Shown here piece after piece: positions 65 to 39,496 of a stretch of DNA of 39,496 nucleotides. Below the pieces are notes generated by a model. The model saw only the letters and a program-made list of their open reading frames with translations. It ran no database searches and was not told the DNA's origin. The stretch comes from a virus: positions 1-39,496 of the IMG/VR virus record IMGVR_UViG_3300025030_000250, one strand, 5' to 3'. Every line of letters begins with the position of its first letter. The stretch's first letter is position 1. The position numbers and the translations under genes were made by a program.

Positions 65-697
65 ATGCTAGCAATTAAAGTCGATATCCGCGGCCTGGAC
101 GCTGTGCAAAAGAACCTGGCGCGGATCTCGGACGAGCTAAAACGCGGGCAGGCGATTGGCGCGGCGCTCAACAAGACGGCGCAACAGGCGAAGGCCGAGG
201 TCAATCGGGCGATCGTCGAGCGCTACGCAATCAAAGCTAGCGAGGTGCGCAATTCGGTGTACCTGCGCAGCGCCCGAGCGAAGACAAACCAGCTCGAGGC
301 GGTGATCGAGATTTTCGGCAGCCCGACGAAGCGCGGCCGGTCGATGAACGTGGTCCGCTTTCTCGCCGCGGTCCAAGCCGCCGGCCGCGCCGTAAAGACC
401 CGGGGCGCGAGGGTAAACAAAAAGGCGCTCGCTGCCCTAGGTGGGCAACTCGGGTTCCGGTTTTTGCGGTCTGGTGGTATGAAAAAGATCGCAGGCGCGT
501 TCCTGGGCAACAAGGGTCGCACCGTGTTTCAACGCATCGGACCTGGCCGGCTGCCGATCGAGCCGGTGCAGATGATTGGCGTGTCGCAGATGTTCAGTTC
601 GCGCGCGATCCGCAGCCGGGTGATGGCGAAAATTCATGCCGACCTGCCGGTGCAGGTGCGCCGCGCCGTCAACATGGTTCTGGCGAGATCGAGGTGA
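65..697 (+). CDS. prophage minor tail protein Z (GpZ)-like
   Basis: A 210-residue basic protein beginning at an ATG with no strong ribosome binding site. Its opening (VDIRGLDAVQKNLARI) followed by an Ala/Lys-rich helix and an alternating basic C-terminal half resembles the GPZ minor tail family, whose members sit near the head-tail junction of lambdoid and Mu-like phages. The stop overlaps the GTG start of the small terminase (GTGA), so the two are translationally coupled. Finding this gene in front of the terminase rather than after the portal and capsid genes is unusual. Exact role is inferred from family resemblance only. Confidence 0.6.
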   Translation: MLAIKVDIRGLDAVQKNLARISDELKRGQAIGAALNKTAQQAKAEVNRAIVERYAIKASEVRNSVYLRSARAKTNQLEAVIEIFGSPTKRGRSMNVVRFLAAVQAAGRAVKTRGARVNKKALAALGGQLGFRFLRSGGMKKIAGAFLGNKGRTVFQRIGPGRLPIEPVQMIGVSQMFSSRAIRSRVMAKIHADLPVQVRRAVNMVLARSR

Positions 698-1323
698 TCG
701 AGACCCGGACCGCCTTCGCCCGGCGAATTGGCGTACACAAATCGCAGATCACCCGAGCGGCGCAAGCTGGCCGGCTGGTGCTGACCGCGGATGGGCGGGT
801 GAACGTCGAGGCCTCGATCGAGCGCTGGCATGCTACGAAGGGCGGCAGGGACGACGTAGCGGCCCGCCACGCCGCGAACCGGGGCGGGGCGGTACTCGGG
901 CAGGTGTTGGTTGGAAACGCGCCCAGCGGCCCGGATATCGCAACGTCGCAACCGCTGCAACCGGGGGCGCAACCGGACGACGGCGAATCTGGCGGGCGCA
1001 TCCGCTTAAAAGCGATGGCGATCCACTTCGCGAACCAGTCGATCAAACTGGAAATGGCGCTCCAGCGCGGCCTGCGCTACCCGCTGGCCGCGGTCGGGCG
1101 CGAGGCGCAGGCTCTCGGTTCGACATTCCGCGCAGCCATGGAGCGGATCATCGACCAGACTGCGCCGCGGCTGGCCATCATGGCGACTGATCTGGAGCGC
1201 CGGCGCCTGCTCGATGCCGAACTTGCCCGCCTGCGCTGGATGCTGAAATCCGAACTGCCGCTGGCGCTGCGCCGCATGCGCGCCGCCGGCGCAGCCAAAC
1301 CCAAGGAACAGCATGAAAATTGA
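694..1323 (+). CDS. terminase small subunit (Nu1-like)
   Basis: A 209-residue protein with a GTG start overlapping the preceding stop. Residues 5-45 form a winged helix-turn-helix (AFARRIGVHKSQITRAAQAG, then a wing and GRVNVEASIERW) typical of Nu1-type small terminases that recognise the packaging site. A proline/glycine-rich linker (about 75-105) leads to a helical C-terminal region (about 105-195) expected to mediate oligomerisation and contact with the large subunit. Its position just before the large terminase supports the call. The next gene remnant starts inside its last codons (ATG at 1313). Confidence 0.8.
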   Translation: MIETRTAFARRIGVHKSQITRAAQAGRLVLTADGRVNVEASIERWHATKGGRDDVAARHAANRGGAVLGQVLVGNAPSGPDIATSQPLQPGAQPDDGESGGRIRLKAMAIHFANQSIKLEMALQRGLRYPLAAVGREAQALGSTFRAAMERIIDQTAPRLAIMATDLERRRLLDAELARLRWMLKSELPLALRRMRAAGAAKPKEQHEN

Positions 1324-1438
1324 AACCCTCGCCATCGAGCGCCTGATTCCCTACGCGCGCAACAGCCGGTTTCAATCCGCGCCCGACGAATTCGTCGGGC
1401 GATACCGGATGGTGCGTATATATGCGCACAGCCTTTGA
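1313..1438 (+). pseudogene. ParB-like domain gene, truncated at the CRISPR-like repeat
   Basis: An ATG overlapping the end of the small terminase opens a 41-codon frame. Its first 18 residues (MKIETLAIERLIPYARNS) match the characteristic start of phage ParB/Spo0J-nuclease domain proteins, often N-terminal to DNA methyltransferases. After the next codon the frame runs into the first CRISPR-like repeat and the spacer and ends at TGA inside the spacer. Everything that should follow (the rest of the ParB domain) is missing. I read this as a gene stub left by a deletion or insertion, not a functional protein. Confidence 0.6.
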
Positions 1439-1478
1439 TGGTTTCAATCCGCGCCCGACGAATTCGTCGGGCGATACC
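1368..1478 (-). CRISPR. repeat-spacer-repeat mini-CRISPR unit
   Basis: Two identical 39-bp copies (1368-1406 and 1440-1478; period 72) flank a 33-bp unique segment. The natural core is 37 bp (1369-1405, 1441-1477), giving a 35-bp spacer. Read on the minus strand the core ends in GCGGATTGAAAC, the classic 3' end of many type I and III CRISPR repeats, and contains a perfect 22-bp palindrome (1380-1401) able to form the repeat hairpin. Repeat and spacer lengths are in the normal CRISPR range. No cas genes occur anywhere in the window. The spacer itself has a near-palindrome (about 1413-1430). On the minus strand a TTGAAA in the second repeat and TATATA in the spacer lie 19 bp apart and could be a weak promoter. 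Alternatives are a duplicated dyad used in packaging, or a chimeric assembly. Confidence 0.75.
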
Positions 1479-3623
1479 ATGCCAACCCTCGCCGACCTCC
1501 AGACCGAACGCGAGACGCTGCGTGCCGCCCAGGCAAAGCAGGATTTCGAGGCGGCGCACGCGGCCACGTGTAGACAGACCGACCTGGTAGCGGCGGGAGC
1601 GGCAGTGCGCGCGGTGCTGCTCGATGCGATCGACGGCGCGGCGCAGCGCCTGCTCGATGCGATCGCGGGCGAACACGACGAGACGCGCGTGCACTACCTG
1701 ATGAGCGAGACAGTGCATGAGATGCTCGCCAGCGTGGGCGAGGCGGCGGTGGCGGCGGCGGGCGCGCTGCCGCTGGTGGGGGAGCGCGTCAAGCGCGGGG
1801 TAAAACCGCGCGATCTGTTGACCGTATCGCAGTGGGCTGACCGGCACCGCGAGCTAAAAAGCGGCACCAACGCGCCCGGGCGCTGGCATACCACGCTCAC
1901 GCCATACCTCGCGGAGATCATGGATGCACTGAGCGAGCATTCGCCGGTGCGCCAGGTGACTTTTATGAAATCCTCCGGCGTGGGCGGCACCGAGGCGGGC
2001 TACAACTGGATCGGCTACGTTATGTACCACCTGCAGAAGGACCTCCTGGTGGTGGTGCCGACGCTCGAATTGCGCGACCGGTCATTCAATCCGCGCCTGA
2101 ACAAGATGATCGATGAATCCGCGGACCTCGCCGGGCTGGTCACGACATCGATGCGCAATCGATCCAACCGCGGCGACCTACTCGAATACGGCGCACGGGC
2201 TCGAATCATCAAGGCAGGCGCGAATTCGCCCGACAGTTTGCGCTCAGACCACCTGCCGTATGTAATGTGTGACGAGGTCGACGCCTTTCCTTGGGATGTG
2301 GGCGGCGAAGGCGACCCGATGACGCTGATCGAAAACCGCCAGCGCACCTACTCGCGCGCGAAAACCTACCTCGTCTCGACGCCCACCATCGCGGGCCTGT
2401 CGCGCATCGACATGCAATACAACCGCTCCGACCGGCGCCGCTACCATGTGCCCTGCCCGCACTGCGGCGAGTTCCAGCCGCTCGAATTCGGCGGGCGCGA
2501 CAAGTCCTACGGCCTGAAATTCCGCACCGCGCCGAAAACCGACGTCGACACCGGCGACGGCGCGATCGACCAGGTCACCGCCGCCTGGTATCTGTGCCGC
2601 GCGTGCGCCGCCGAGATCGACGAGGGCAACAAGACCGATATGCTTGCGCGCGGGCGCTGGCTCGCCGAACGCCCGCACATCCGCCACCACCGCGGGTACC
2701 ATTTGAATGCATTGTATGCGCCCGTCGGCCTGGGTCTGAATTGGCGCGCGGTGGCGCAGAAGTGGTTGAACAGCCAGGGCGACACCGCCGAGCTCAAGGG
2801 CTTCATCAACACTTACCTCGGCCAGGTGTGGAAAGAGCAGGGCGAGTCGATCGAGGGCCTGTCGCTGATCTCGCGCCTGGAGGACTACGCGGCGGACCTC
2901 GCCGGCCTCGCGGTGCTCCTGGTCACCGCCGGCGCCGACGTGCAGAAAGACCGCATTGAGGTGTCCATCGTCGGCTGGGGCGTGGGCGAGGAGGCCTGGC
3001 TCGCCGACCACATCATCCTCGATGGGGATACCGCGCAGCCCGATGTGTGGGACGACCTGCACGATGCCCTCACGGCCGCGGCTGTGCACATCGCCGCGAT
3101 CGATGCCGGATTTAACACGAGCATGGTCTATGCGTTTTGCGAATCACGCCGCTGGGCCATCGCTGTCAAGGGCGTCGAAGGCCTGCACCGACCACTGATC
3201 GAGGACGACCGCAAGCGCAAGCAGCGCCTGCGCACGCGGCGCAAAAAAGGCCAGCCGATCGAGCCGCTCGGCGTCGACCAGGGCAAGGCGCTCATTTACT
3301 CGCGCGCCAAGCTCACTACGCCGGGGCCGGGCTATATCCATTTCCGCCGCGACCCGGCATTCGACGACGAGTATTTCGCTCAGCTCGCCGCCGAAAAGCT
3401 GGTGACCAAGTTTCGCGGGACGCGCCCATTCCAACAATGGGTACAGACGCGTGCGCGCAACGAGGCCCTGGATTGTCTGGTGTACGCGCTCGCCGCGCGG
3501 CGGCTCATCAAGCCCGGCGGGGGCGGCATTTCGCTCGCCGCGCGCACCATAACGCAGTCGAGCAAAAACGCGGGCATATCGCTCGCGGGATGGAAACGCG
3601 GTCCCACGATAGGGCCAGGATGA
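1479..3623 (+). CDS. terminase large subunit with extra small-terminase-like N-terminus
   Basis: A 714-residue gpA-family large terminase: ATPase that drives DNA into the head plus the nuclease that cuts it. Walker A-like loop at 163-171 (MKSSGVGGTE), Walker B around 261-270 (YVMCDEVDAFP), coupling segment VSTPTIAG, a CPHC...CRAC zinc pair, then the nuclease region (GADVQKDRIEV, IDAGFNTS, DCLVYALA). The usual gpA start corresponds to residue 112 (LLTVSQWADRHRELK). Residues 1-95 are extra and resemble the C-terminal half of a small terminase (coiled ERETLRAAQAK, then TDLVAAGAAVRAVLLDAI and a helical tail). ATG 1479 directly abuts the second CRISPR-like repeat and has no evident Shine-Dalgarno; an in-frame ATG at 1422, inside the spacer, is the alternative start. 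Confidence 0.9.
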   Translation: MPTLADLQTERETLRAAQAKQDFEAAHAATCRQTDLVAAGAAVRAVLLDAIDGAAQRLLDAIAGEHDETRVHYLMSETVHEMLASVGEAAVAAAGALPLVGERVKRGVKPRDLLTVSQWADRHRELKSGTNAPGRWHTTLTPYLAEIMDALSEHSPVRQVTFMKSSGVGGTEAGYNWIGYVMYHLQKDLLVVVPTLELRDRSFNPRLNKMIDESADLAGLVTTSMRNRSNRGDLLEYGARARIIKAGANSPDSLRSDHLPYVMCDEVDAFPWDVGGEGDPMTLIENRQRTYSRAKTYLVSTPTIAGLSRIDMQYNRSDRRRYHVPCPHCGEFQPLEFGGRDKSYGLKFRTAPKTDVDTGDGAIDQVTAAWYLCRACAAEIDEGNKTDMLARGRWLAERPHIRHHRGYHLNALYAPVGLGLNWRAVAQKWLNSQGDTAELKGFINTYLGQVWKEQGESIEGLSLISRLEDYAADLAGLAVLLVTAGADVQKDRIEVSIVGWGVGEEAWLADHIILDGDTAQPDVWDDLHDALTAAAVHIAAIDAGFNTSMVYAFCESRRWAIAVKGVEGLHRPLIEDDRKRKQRLRTRRKKGQPIEPLGVDQGKALIYSRAKLTTPGPGYIHFRRDPAFDDEYFAQLAAEKLVTKFRGTRPFQQWVQTRARNEALDCLVYALAARRLIKPGGGGISLAARTITQSSKNAGISLAGWKRGPTIGPG

Positions 3624-4223: not shown

Positions 4224-5813
4224 GTGAAGCGCCTGCCCGTCATCACCCCGACCCTGCTCGACCGTGCAATCGCCGCGGTGGCGCCGCGCATGGCCGTCAA
4301 GCGCCTGCAGGCGCGCACCATGCTCGCGCTCGCCGGAGGTTACACCGGCGCGCGCATGGACCGGGCGAGCCTGTCTGGTTTCCGTCCGTGGGCGGGTGGC
4401 CCAGAATCGGATATTATCGGCGACCTGCCAGCGCTGCGCGCGCGCTCGCGCGATTTGGTGCGCAACGTGGCCATCGCCGCGGGGGCGATCGGCACGCAGG
4501 TGTCACACGTGGTCGGCACAGGCCTATCAGCCTCGCCTTGCCCGGATGCTGCGTTCCTTGGTATGGACGAAACTGCCTCGGAGGCTTGGCGGATTGCCAC
4601 GCAGCGCGAGTGGAAATTGTGGGCGGAGTCGCCCGATTGCGACGCGGCGCGGCAGGTAAATTTCTACGGGCTGCAGCGGCTTGCATTTCGCAGCGCGCTC
4701 GAATCGGGCGACGTGTTTGTGCTCACGCCGAATCTGCGCAGACCGAACCGCCCCTATCAGCTCACGCTGCAGGTGATCGAGGCAGATCGCGTGTGCAATC
4801 CGAATAACAAATCAGATTCCGATACGATCGTCGCTGGAGTCGAACGCGCCAGTGTGGGCGGCGAGGCGATAGCGTGTCATATCGTCGATCGGCATCCGGG
4901 CGAGTTACGGAAACGCGGATTGATCTGGACGCGCTACGCCTATACCGGCAACGCGAGTGGGCGGCGCAACGTGTTGCATCTATTCGAGCCGACACGGCCC
5001 GGCCAGGTGCGCGGCGTGCCATCGCTCGCACCAATCATCGAACCGCTGAAACAACTCGGGCGCTACACCGACGCCGAGTTGCAGGCAGCGGTAACCTCGG
5101 GGTTGTTTTCCGTGTTCATAAAAATGGACCCCGAAGCGTTCACCGAGCTGTTCAGCGCCGATGCGCAAGAAACGATCGTCAATCAGGCCAAGGATTGGAC
5201 CAAAATTATGGAATCAGGCAAGGCGATCAACTTGCTGCCGGGCGAATCGATCGAATCGGCCAACCCCGGACGACCCAACGCCGCGTTCGACCCGTTCATG
5301 CAATCGATCCTGCAGCAGATCGGCATGGCGCTCGAAATCCCATATGAAGTGCTAACCATGCACTTTTCATCCAGCTACAGCGCCGCGCGCGCGGCGCTCT
5401 TGTCGGCGTGGCGGTTCTTCCGATCGCGACGCGATTGGCTAGCGACCTACCTGTGCCAGCCGGTATATGAGCTGTGGCTGGAAGAGGCGGTATCGATCGG
5501 CCGCATCGCGGCGCCCGGCTTTTTCGCAGACCCCGCGGTGCGCGCCGCCTGGTGCGCGGTACAGTGGACTGGCGACGGCCCGGGCTCGATCGATCCGGTG
5601 AAAGAAATCGCCGCGGCAAAGCAGCGCATCGACGAAGGAATTTCAACACGCGAGGTCGAGTCCATCCTCTACGACGGCGTGGACTGGGCGACTAAACACC
5701 GTCAGCGCGTAAAGGAAGAAGCCGCCCGCAAGGCGGGCGGGCTCGATGTGGCGGTATCTGGTCCTGCGTCCGCCGACAGCGCGAATCCGGATGCAGGGGT
5801 GCAACTGCCTTAA
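4224..5813 (+). CDS. portal protein (lambda gpB family)
   Basis: A 529-residue portal protein with a GTG start 3 bp after the gpW stop. Diagnostic stretches are the N-terminal NVAIAAGAIGTQVSHVVGTG, the central AELQAAVTSGLFSVFIK, and FDPFMQSILQQIGMALEIPY followed by SSSYSAARAALLSAWRFF, all typical of lambda-type portals. Twelve copies are expected at one capsid vertex, forming the DNA channel and the terminase and tail docking point. The C-terminal tail (about 495-529) is low complexity. The last 15 bp are repeated at 3921-3935. Confidence 0.92.
   Translation: MKRLPVITPTLLDRAIAAVAPRMAVKRLQARTMLALAGGYTGARMDRASLSGFRPWAGGPESDIIGDLPALRARSRDLVRNVAIAAGAIGTQVSHVVGTGLSASPCPDAAFLGMDETASEAWRIATQREWKLWAESPDCDAARQVNFYGLQRLAFRSALESGDVFVLTPNLRRPNRPYQLTLQVIEADRVCNPNNKSDSDTIVAGVERASVGGEAIACHIVDRHPGELRKRGLIWTRYAYTGNASGRRNVLHLFEPTRPGQVRGVPSLAPIIEPLKQLGRYTDAELQAAVTSGLFSVFIKMDPEAFTELFSADAQETIVNQAKDWTKIMESGKAINLLPGESIESANPGRPNAAFDPFMQSILQQIGMALEIPYEVLTMHFSSSYSAARAALLSAWRFFRSRRDWLATYLCQPVYELWLEEAVSIGRIAAPGFFADPAVRAAWCAVQWTGDGPGSIDPVKEIAAAKQRIDEGISTREVESILYDGVDWATKHRQRVKEEAARKAGGLDVAVSGPASADSANPDAGVQLP
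5799..5813. repeat. 15-bp direct repeat, copy 2
   Basis: Exact copy of 3921-3935, here encoding the end of the portal protein including its stop codon. Confidence 0.6.
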
Positions 5814-25682: not shown

Positions 25683-26687
25683 TCACTTTTTTTTGACACT
25701 CGCAGTTGCCTCCTCATACGCTTCCTGTATCCGCGCCACGGCCGCATCCCGCAGCGCATCGTCCACGATCATGCTCGCGCAGTCGCCGGCCGCTTTGAAT
25801 TTCCGCAGGCCGATGAATTTGTCCACGTCCGCTATGATCTCCGCATCGTTGGGTCCAGCGTCGCCACCCGCGCCGGGTTCCGCAGAGAGGACGGAAGATG
25901 CCGGGGCGGGCGACGGGCTGGACTTCGGGGCGCCGGATGCCCATGCAGATAGGCGCTTTCCGGTTTCGACTGTGATAGGTTCGCCGTCCTTGAAAACTTG
26001 GCGCAGAACGTCGCGGGTGTATTTCGTTCCGTGGAATGCGTGTTCGCGGTCAATCCAGCCGTGGACAAACATTTCGTACAGAATATCCTCAGACTGTTTC
26101 GGGGACAGGTCGGTTGACCGTACCCACTCACCGACCTTCGGCGGCTTTCCTTGCGCGCCGGCCGCTTTCCATCGTTCAACGTGCGCCGGCTTGATTTCCT
26201 CCATCGTGTACTTTGCCCTCATGCACACGATCACCAGCGGGATAGGTGTCTGCGTCAAGCGTAGCATGAATTCGCGGGCATGTTGCATTTTCGGCTGTTG
26301 CCAAACGAGCGGCCCTTTCTTGCCATCGGCCTGATTCTGCGCAGCCATACCGAGTACGCCATTGACGCCTTCCCATTCGTGGCTGGCGCTGTCCACGATC
26401 AGTACTTTAGCGCCGGACTTTTCAGCCGCAGCAATCGCATCGCCGTATTCTTTCGGGGAAAAGCTGGCGCGCATAGAAATTACGGAATACCCGCCAACGA
26501 CAGGATCATCTGCCCAGGCTTCGCCTCGCCCTGATTCCGTTTCGATCATGCACACGTCGGCCATACTCCCGGCGTACCCTTTGGCAAGCAACAGGCTGGA
26601 ATGCGTCTTGCCGCAGCCTGATTCGGAGTACAGGCCGATAAGCGGTTTTGCCTCGGACGTGATGGCCTTGCGCAGCGTGTAGGTCAT
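25683..26687 (-). CDS. AAA ATPase, Sak4-like recombinase
   Basis: A 334-residue protein. Walker A is GLYSESGCGKTHSSL (about 18-32), Walker B KVLIVDSASHEW (about 95-106), with a sensor-like segment IPLVIVCMRAK. This is the RecA-like AAA_24 core found in phage Sak4 proteins, which anneal or exchange single strands. A flexible Ser/Pro/Ala linker (about 255-275) separates a helical C-terminal part. Its operon also contains a RecE-type nuclease, supporting a recombination role. It could alternatively be a more general phage ATP-binding protein of the same fold. Confidence 0.7.
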   Translation of the reverse strand: MTYTLRKAITSEAKPLIGLYSESGCGKTHSSLLLAKGYAGSMADVCMIETESGRGEAWADDPVVGGYSVISMRASFSPKEYGDAIAAAEKSGAKVLIVDSASHEWEGVNGVLGMAAQNQADGKKGPLVWQQPKMQHAREFMLRLTQTPIPLVIVCMRAKYTMEEIKPAHVERWKAAGAQGKPPKVGEWVRSTDLSPKQSEDILYEMFVHGWIDREHAFHGTKYTRDVLRQVFKDGEPITVETGKRLSAWASGAPKSSPSPAPASSVLSAEPGAGGDAGPNDAEIIADVDKFIGLRKFKAAGDCASMIVDDALRDAAVARIQEAYEEATASVKKK

Positions 26688-28188: not shown

Positions 28189-28346
28189 TCTGGTTCCTTT
28201 TTTACATAGTCGTTTGCTTCCGCCCATGCGGAAAGTTGTGTGTCGTCAAACACATCTTGCGGTTCCATTTCCTCTTGAATCCACGCAACGATTTGATCAA
28301 GCATTGCTCTCCCGAAACTGTTGTCTTGCGTAGAAGTGGTGCTCAT
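28185..28346 (-). CDS. small acidic protein
   Basis: A 53-residue protein, overlapped at both ends by neighbours (ATGA at each junction), which sets the start at 28346. It is acidic and probably helical (DQIVAWIQEEMEPQDVFDDT). Not recognised. Confidence 0.55.
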   Translation of the reverse strand: MSTTSTQDNSFGRAMLDQIVAWIQEEMEPQDVFDDTQLSAWAEANDYVKKEPE

Positions 28347-29311
28347 TCTTTGTTCTCCTTTGACCATCCAATGCGTTCAATGTCGTACTCGTTTCCGAGT
28401 GCCTGTTCCTCGCGTTCCTGCCAAGCGGCATCTTCCCAGGGAGGAATCTCCGGGTAGCAGACGCGCGTTGGGTAAGCGGGCCAACGTCCCGTATCCATGC
28501 ACTGCCGCCATAGCGCCAGGCCGTGCTCGATCTTGCGCGCGCCCAGATCCGCAGCGTGCGGGTCAAGCCCGACGAGCGAGCACAGGAACGGTGCTTCCTG
28601 CTCCTGCACAAGCCAAATGTACGCAGGGACCTCGCCGCACAGCGCCTTGACGCCGCGCAGGTAGAAAGCGGCTGACGTGTAGTACCCCATTCTGATCATC
28701 TGCGTGCGGCCCCACAGATCAGGCTCCGCGCTCGTTCCGCCGGTCTTATAGTCCACGATCAGCTTGCGGTCCGCGGTGATGCGGTCAGGCCGTATTCGGC
28801 ACTTTGTCGGCCCATCCTGCCAGATCATCGTTACCTCGGACTCGCCGCCTTCCGGCTGGAACGCCTGCCAGATAGCAGGCTCGGTCGCTTTCAGCGATTC
28901 GATAAATTCCCAGGCCATGCTCACCATGTCCTTGATCGTGCCGTAGTCGTCCAGCAGGATTGGAATTTTCCCTTGCTCGCGCGCCAGGTCACGCGCATCC
29001 TTGATGCTCTTATTCGTCCATCCTTTCGGGATGGCGCCGGTTCTCTCTGCCGGGTGATCGTTCGGGTCGATGACCTCGATACCGTCCTCGCTGCCTTCCA
29101 ACAGGATGCCGTGCGCAATCGTTCCGGCGTCCATCGCCTTCGACGTGTCGCGCTCGCGCTCGATGTTCATCCAGCTTTCGTACCACGCCGCTTTCGGGCA
29201 GCGCGTGATAATCGTTTTCAGCAGGGACGCGCTCACCGCAGGCAGGGCGAGATACGCTTCCATTGGCAATGCGGAAATGATGCCGGGTGCAGGCTCTTTC
29301 AGGTCGATCAT
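28343..29311 (-). CDS. RecE/ExoVIII-like PD-(D/E)XK nuclease (DUF3799)
   Basis: A 322-residue exonuclease-like protein. Family marks are the N-terminal VSASLLKTIITRCPKAAWYE, the AMDAGTIAHGILLEG motif, and the catalytic strands CRIRPDRI and LIVDYKTGGT, i.e. the Asp and D-x-K of the PD-(D/E)XK fold, followed by MIRMGYYTSAAFYL. Such enzymes resect DNA ends to give single strands for annealing. Together with the Sak4-like ATPase it forms a two-component phage recombination system. Confidence 0.85.
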   Translation of the reverse strand: MIDLKEPAPGIISALPMEAYLALPAVSASLLKTIITRCPKAAWYESWMNIERERDTSKAMDAGTIAHGILLEGSEDGIEVIDPNDHPAERTGAIPKGWTNKSIKDARDLAREQGKIPILLDDYGTIKDMVSMAWEFIESLKATEPAIWQAFQPEGGESEVTMIWQDGPTKCRIRPDRITADRKLIVDYKTGGTSAEPDLWGRTQMIRMGYYTSAAFYLRGVKALCGEVPAYIWLVQEQEAPFLCSLVGLDPHAADLGARKIEHGLALWRQCMDTGRWPAYPTRVCYPEIPPWEDAAWQEREEQALGNEYDIERIGWSKENKE

Positions 29312-29990: not shown

Positions 29991-30128
29991 ATCGGGCGAA
30001 ACGCATGGCGGCGCGCAGAGGCTACAATAGATGAACACGGCTGGGCGCGCGTGTGGCTGACGTGGCCATTCGGGATGAGACTGTTCAAGACGTGGCGACC
30101 AATCACAACCTTGAAGGGGGCGAAGTGA
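29976..30128 (+). CDS. small basic hypothetical protein
   Basis: A 50-residue protein beginning IEVKIGRNAWRRAEATIDEH and continuing GWARVWLTWPF, with a strand-rich pattern. ATG 29976 or 29973 can be used; an upstream ATG at 29934 gives 14 extra residues but AAGGA directly touches it. The stop overlaps the GTG of the methyltransferase, so this is the first gene of the rightward replication operon. Confidence 0.55.
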   Translation: MIEVKIGRNAWRRAEATIDEHGWARVWLTWPFGMRLFKTWRPITTLKGAK

Positions 30129-30793
30129 ATCCGGTTGTCATCGGCAACGCGACTTTATACTGCGCTGATTGCATGGACGTGCTACCTACGCTGCAGAAGG
30201 TGGATGCGGTGATTACTGACCCGCCGTATGGGATTCTTGCTGATACCGGCTCTGCGGCAACGCGACGTAGCGGTAGAAACCAGGACGATGGGCGCATGGC
30301 TTGGGATATTACTCCTAGCGGTGACGCTATCACGCTTATGCGCTCTAAAGCGGATAGGCAGATGATTTGGGGCGGCGTGCATCTTGAATTGCCACCAACA
30401 TTTGGCTACCTGATTTGGGATAAACAGATTGACGGCCTTAACTTCGGGGAGTGTGAATTTTGCTGGACGAATTGGCGTTTCGCGCCCCGCATTTTCCGCT
30501 ATCGTGCCGTTGGCGTTGACGGCGGCAAGATCCACCCAACACAAAAGCCTGAGGCACTAATGCGGTGGTGCATCAAGCACGCCGATATGCCGGAGTCGAT
30601 CCTCGACCCCTTCATGGGCAGCGGCACCACTGGCGTTGCGTGCATGAACCTTGGGCGCAAGTTTATCGGCATTGAAATTTGCGAGAAATACTTTAATATA
30701 GCGGTAGAACGAATTACCAATCCACAACGACAAAGGCCGCTGTTCCCAGACGAGCCGCAGCCCAAGCCGGAGCAGGCAAGGATGGACTTGTGA
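30125..30793 (+). CDS. DNA methyltransferase (beta-class, DPPY)
   Basis: A 222-residue amino-methyltransferase. GTG 30125 overlaps the upstream stop and follows a GGGGG purine tract. Motif IV DPPY is at 32-35, HPTQKP at 137-142 and the AdoMet-binding DPFMGSG at 161-167; the order places it in the beta class, and DPPY favours N6-adenine over N4-cytosine. A compact solitary enzyme with no partner nuclease in the window, so it most likely protects phage DNA from host restriction. Target site not deducible. Confidence 0.88.
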   Translation: MNPVVIGNATLYCADCMDVLPTLQKVDAVITDPPYGILADTGSAATRRSGRNQDDGRMAWDITPSGDAITLMRSKADRQMIWGGVHLELPPTFGYLIWDKQIDGLNFGECEFCWTNWRFAPRIFRYRAVGVDGGKIHPTQKPEALMRWCIKHADMPESILDPFMGSGTTGVACMNLGRKFIGIEICEKYFNIAVERITNPQRQRPLFPDEPQPKPEQARMDL

Positions 30794-39233: not shown

Positions 39234-39264
39234 CAACCACACCAATGAGCATAGCCACCCATGC

Positions 39265-39320
39265 GCATACTCGCATACTCGCATACTCGCATACTCGCAT
39301 ACTCGCATACTCGCATACGC
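39265..39320. repeat. GCATACTC octamer tandem repeat
   Basis: Six exact copies of GCATACTC (39265-39312) then a variant GCATACGC. No coding sense. Its place near the putative cos site suggests protein binding, or simple replication slippage. Confidence 0.9.
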
Positions 39321-39484: not shown

Positions 39485-39496
39485 GCTCCGAATCGG
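39485..39496. repeat. 12-nt terminal direct repeat, right copy
   Basis: Identical to bases 1-12. See left copy: candidate cos overhang or circular-contig overlap. Confidence 0.5.

Follow-up and report, generated by a model that had tools for sequence, protein, structure and literature searches.

Organization of the terminase locus

The analyzed window is a whole virus record of 39,496 bp. Between the open reading frame of the terminase small subunit (terS) and the gene of the large subunit (terL), it carries a 109-bp unit comprised of two repeats and a spacer and antisense to the late genes. The features of this locus and two distant genes relevant to recombination are listed here.

694-1323, plus strand: terminase small subunit, the upstream flank (phrog_57, E 4.6e-14; a homologous ORF lies upstream of terL in relatives)
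1313-1368, plus strand: remnant of a ParB-methyltransferase gene, 18 codons, MKIETLAIERLIPYARNS (tblastn 83% to L011 and L003, 78% to L042; DNA homology ends at 1368)
1369-1405, minus strand: CRISPR repeat, very likely of type I-C, distal copy in the minus-strand reading (RF01322 CRISPR-DR9, 46.8 bits, positions 1-37/37; exact copy of 1441-1477)
1406-1440, minus strand: spacer, 35 bp, CATCAAAGGCTGTGCGCATATATACGCACCATCCG (the commonest length among 140 sister-array spacers; no target match)
1441-1477, minus strand: CRISPR repeat, very likely of type I-C, proximal copy in the minus-strand reading (RF01322 CRISPR-DR9, 46.8 bits, positions 1-37/37)
1479-3623, plus strand: terminase large subunit (terL), the downstream flank (GpA_ATPase and GpA_nuclease; ATG at 1479; alignments to relatives)
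25683-26687, minus strand: AAA_24 ATPase near the exonuclease (PF13479, E 7.9e-7; phrog_1366 of unknown function)
28343-29311, minus strand: exonuclease VIII, RecE-like (phrog_412, E 3.4e-58; PF12684 and PF12705)

Two exact 39-bp copies are located at 1368-1406 and 1440-1478, with a start-to-start distance of 72 bp, and they share a 37-bp core, identical at 1369-1405 and 1441-1477, with the 35-bp spacer in between. The core occurs twice in the window and in none of 100 dinucleotide shuffles. Read on the minus strand it is GTATCGCCCGACGAATTCGTCGGGCGCGGATTGAAAC; it contains a perfect 22-bp palindrome, CGCCCGACGAATTCGTCGGGCG, and on this strand the repeat is predicted to form a 9-bp stem closed by the four-base loop AAUU (-18.2 kcal/mol, z -3.2). 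The copies, the core, the palindrome and the 35-bp segment had been listed in a preliminary description of the sequence and were confirmed here. The ORF scans likewise bear out its placement of the unit in the terminase region, antisense to late transcription, of a phage lacking recognizable cas genes, as none were recognized among the window ORFs scanned.

The spacer contains an ATG at 1422 in frame with terL, which could thus start 19 residues early, through the repeat. This start would overlap the last part of the truncated ParB frame (stop codon at 1438-1440).

As for the ends of the record, its first and last 12 bases are identical (GCTCCGAATCGG; 1-12 and 39485-39496) and are found nowhere else in the window, possibly representing a 12-nt cohesive end. 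A gene for an HNH endonuclease immediately precedes the right end, and the left end is closely followed by the terminase genes. Near the right end there is also a perfect tandem array of CGCATACT (6.9 copies, 39264-39318), possibly a terminase-binding or replication element.

Repeat class and sister arrays

On the minus strand, both repeat copies match the CRISPR-DR9 covariance model from end to end, with a score just above the curated Rfam cut-off (46.8 and 45 bits, respectively), as a CRISPR direct repeat should. Moreover, two identical repeats enclosing a non-repeated spacer of a length typical of the system constitute a CRISPR array. In a scan of one genome per species (84,980 species), the same repeat frame with a variable loop was found in three stretches, all of them from Burkholderiales and all of them arrays with spacers of 33-38 bp. 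The arrays of sister repeats in this order reach 33 copies, and 35 bp is the most frequent length among their 140 spacers (range 33-38 bp). One sister array, in L083, adjoins cas8c/Csd1, cas7/Csd2, cas4 and cas1c, which places this class of repeats beside type I-C cas genes. Since the sister repeats are found in arrays, one of them next to type I-C cas genes, the unit is very likely a genuine type I-C CRISPR repeat-spacer-repeat. The full-length CRISPR-DR9 match and the sister arrays of Burkholderiales are thus consistent with the preliminary description, where the unit was called a mini-CRISPR.

The repeat search proposed there succeeded in part: it yielded the CRISPR-DR9 class and the sister arrays, the two nearest host repeats having 4 and 5 mismatches to the window repeat, but the exact 37-bp repeat is absent from the genomes of all 84,980 species. 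In the family of the Herminiimonas metagenome-assembled genome (MAG), repeats of the same kind are present in 7 of the 145 genomes, some with perfectly palindromic stems; perfect 22-bp palindromes (CGCCCGGCCAATTGGCCGGGCG) were observed in the arrays of G458 and G496. The identical repeat was not found in these 145 genomes, which contributed further sister arrays only. Judging from the distribution of the sister repeats, the host would belong to Burkholderiales, and, as no genome searched has the exact repeat, it is taken to be unsampled.

Comparison with TerL relatives

The repeat is absent, at up to 11 mismatches, from all 80 loci of TerL relatives, and 14 related records, scanned in their entirety with up to 3 mismatches allowed, lack it as well. 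In three near relatives (L003, L011 and L042), a gene encoding a ParB-methyltransferase of 406-408 amino acids is situated between terS and terL, and the remnant in the window corresponds to the first 18 codons of this gene. DNA homology to these three stops at 1368 and resumes at 1479, that is, at the start codon of terL, base 1478 being also common to some relatives. Hence the 109-bp unit stands in place of approximately 1.17 kb; its left edge has no extra bases, and its right edge has one at most. The rest of the ParB-methyltransferase gene was not found elsewhere in the window; the gene at 30053-30793 encodes a different DNA methyltransferase. By calculation, about 0.2% of random array fragments would have both edges flush.

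The gap between terS and terL varies among TerL relatives (L003, L011, L042, L053 and others) from 0 to more than 2 kb, and is thus a cargo slot; several relatives have ParB-methyltransferases there. In two related phages a C4 antisense RNA (RF01695) is found upstream of terL (L019, 1395-1477; L014, 536-618).

Perfect palindromes adjoining terminase genes might suggest a packaging or regulatory dyad that merely resembles a CRISPR repeat. This explanation, to which we assign a negligible probability, was rejected, as the TerL relatives lack the element and the Rfam CRISPR match is full-length; no dyad of this sort occupies the same place in related phages. The preliminary description had treated a dyad shared by related phages as an objection to the CRISPR reading, and with the repeat absent from the 80 loci and 14 records this objection does not apply in full. 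It had overlooked the replacement of the ParB-methyltransferase gene with flush edges, which points to a recent capture rather than to a long-standing element. The identity of the two repeat copies and their absence from the 80 loci of TerL relatives also indicate that the event is recent.

Spacer target, expression and possible functions

If the unit were transcribed from the minus strand, the transcript would be cut by the Cas5d of the host at both repeat hairpins, yielding one crRNA with the spacer 1406-1440. This crRNA would then be loaded into the type I-C Cascade of the host, either directing it to a rival or filling it with a guide of no use. No promoter-like site was detected on either strand at 1200-1900, and no recognizable leader adjoins the unit. 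The spacer has no target in the window itself, none in the records of 36 related phages or the viral contig L087 (see below) when up to 3 mismatches are allowed, and none in the phage and plasmid records searched. The viral_contigs set, searched with exact 25- and 19-mers only, contains no match either; all these collections are incomplete. The lack of a spacer match lowers the functional claim, not the structural one. Accordingly, the suggestion of the preliminary description that the unit hijacks the Cas machinery of the host, with its spacer as a weapon or with its repeats as a decoy, has so far gained no support from the spacer searches in phage, plasmid and viral sets or from the promoter search.

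The two functional readings can be considered together. As an RNA anti-CRISPR, the unit would present Racr-like decoys binding Cas5/Cas7 of the host type I-C system, and inhibition of CRISPR by a type I-C Racr has been demonstrated (PMC10651486). Consistent with this, the perfectly palindromic stem would give the same hairpin in transcripts of either strand, and the viral contigs L087 and L086 each have a solitary type I-C-like repeat. However, the published criterion (PMC10651486) classes two repeats that lie 72 bp apart and enclose a spacer as an array, not as a solitary unit. Moreover, no acr gene was recognized nearby, no promoter-like site was detected, and the unit runs antisense to the late genes; we regard the decoy function as improbable. 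As an interviral weapon, the spacer would guide the host Cascade against a competing phage, in line with the observation that spacers of known mini-arrays target closely related viruses (PMC6858448, PMC7099407), and a repeat-spacer-repeat is the minimal unit for one crRNA. Still, the spacer failed to match any of the collections listed above, and this role appears slightly less probable than that of a decoy. The present-day function of the unit is uncertain, and it may currently be a passive scar, as no sign of expression has been found.

Solitary repeats in other viruses

Similar repeats were observed in two other viral contigs. In L087, unrelated to the window phage, a solitary CRISPR-DR9 repeat (4704-4740) has its 3' end (ATTGAAAC) directly before the ATG of a structural-type gene of 205 amino acids; lying in the sense orientation, it is a candidate type I-C RNA anti-CRISPR. 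In L086, a solitary type I-C-like repeat (4317-4353), scoring below the Rfam threshold, lies upstream of a capsid-like gene. These two cases show that such repeats recur in viruses, without showing that the unit in the window works.

Comparison with known systems

Mini-arrays are defined by one or two spacers in a virus without cas genes and by a repeat the same, or almost the same, as that of a known host; a spacer matching a related virus or another mobile element is usual but not strictly required. The unit has one spacer, and no cas family is represented among the ORFs scanned. Its repeat differs by 4-5 bases from the nearest host repeats and has no exact counterpart in the genomes of 84,980 species. 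The closest likeness is to the leaderless phage mini-CRISPR arrays of Faure et al. 2019, as these are described in PMC6858448 and PMC8616872: a single spacer between two full repeats of a host type, no cas genes, no leader found, and presumed capture by recombination. Compared with those descriptions, the unit differs in that it has no target found and no known host with an identical repeat, sits, with flush edges, where relatives have a methyltransferase gene, and lies antisense in a packaging operon. The mini-CRISPR arrays of the Sulfolobales viruses SPV1 and SPV2 (PMC6858448) are also cas-less and virus-borne, with one or two spacers, but they possess promoter-bearing host-like leaders and spacers against related viruses, neither of which was found here.

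With solitary repeat units and Racr, including RacrIC1 (PMC10651486), the unit has in common that a virus lacking cas genes carries a type I-C repeat. A solitary unit is characterized by the absence of a second repeat within about 100 bp (PMC10651486), whereas the window has a second identical repeat 72 bp away, so that two repeats flank a spacer, and neither an acr neighbor nor a promoter was recognized. Finally, the type I-C arrays of Burkholderiales (L083 and relatives) have the same 37-nt repeat length, the same ends and stem, and spacers of 33-38 bp, but they are long, chromosomal and adjacent to cas genes, and their repeats are 4-5 bases off the one in the window.

Origin of the unit

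Recombination with host arrays is the presumed source of leaderless mini-arrays in phages (PMC6858448, PMC7099407). For the unit described here, the best explanation, which we hold with somewhat better than even confidence, is a leaderless phage mini-array of host origin, recently captured by recombination with a type I-C array of a host and now occupying the position of a cargo gene. The parts of this reading differ in strength. The unit is likely to be physically present in the phage, and, if it is, the capture was likely recent and in place of the methyltransferase gene. The flush edges raise the suspicion that neighboring spacers of the array matched the phage, in which case the joining could have occurred in the cell, by exchange, or on the computer, as a chimera.

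Exchange guided by spacers is a possible route of capture, and spacer-phage recombination is reported in PMC8616872 with reference to Varble 2019. In its full form, which we propose tentatively and consider less probable than the capture as such, the unit would have been left behind in nature by a double exchange between phage and host array, two spacers of this array having matched the phage on either side of the methyltransferase gene. The immune memory would have served as the repair template, and the phage would have lost the targeted stretch and gained a mini-array. Host spacers matching the phage on both sides would guide the exchange, with help from the phage exonuclease and recombinase, and the last ~35 bp of the remnant (1334-1368) would be a former host spacer. 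Exonuclease VIII is recombination machinery of the phage that could drive exchange at short homology, and the AAA_24 ATPase is possibly a Sak4-like recombinase, judging by its family. The spacers of the sister arrays showed no match to the window phage above reversed controls. PAMs of type I-C systems are mostly TTC/TTN. The PAM at the left edge, read from the ParB relatives, would be of the GT type, mostly GTG, and the one at the right edge would be CTC, only if the former spacer had 34 bp; with the left one taken from relatives, these putative PAMs do not support former spacers at the unit edges.

The main rival of the capture is an assembly or library chimera: the methyltransferase gene of the phage would be intact, and the contig would have passed through a host array in which the two outer spacers match the phage. 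It would account for the flush edges without any biology, and agrees with the fact that only one sequence record carries the unit. Moreover, the unit would part terL from its usual translational coupling, the stop and start codons being overlapping or adjacent in near relatives. On the other hand, such a chimera requires two wrong joins, and in a de Bruijn graph a 33-37-bp spacer merges with the phage only at k not exceeding its own length, while a 37-bp repeat is resolved only at k of at least 38, so that no single k gives the path. This k-mer logic disfavors a chimera of the simplest sort; it does not apply to library chimeras or scaffolding. The non-canonical PAMs inferred for both edges speak against a chimera as well, and the solitary DR9 repeat in the unrelated contig L087 indicates that such repeats do occur in viruses. 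On balance, we consider a chimera rather unlikely, less so than a decoy or weapon function.

Implications

Phage-borne mini-arrays are already known, and the notable feature here is the junction. The standing guess for the way in which leaderless mini-arrays enter phages is recombination with host arrays. If the unit is physically real, its junction is clean enough to tell what was replaced and where the edges lie. The guess thereby becomes testable: either array spacers can serve as homology for exchange, or the record cautions against assemblies that run through arrays. A further addition is the solitary type I-C repeat of L087, an unrelated virus.
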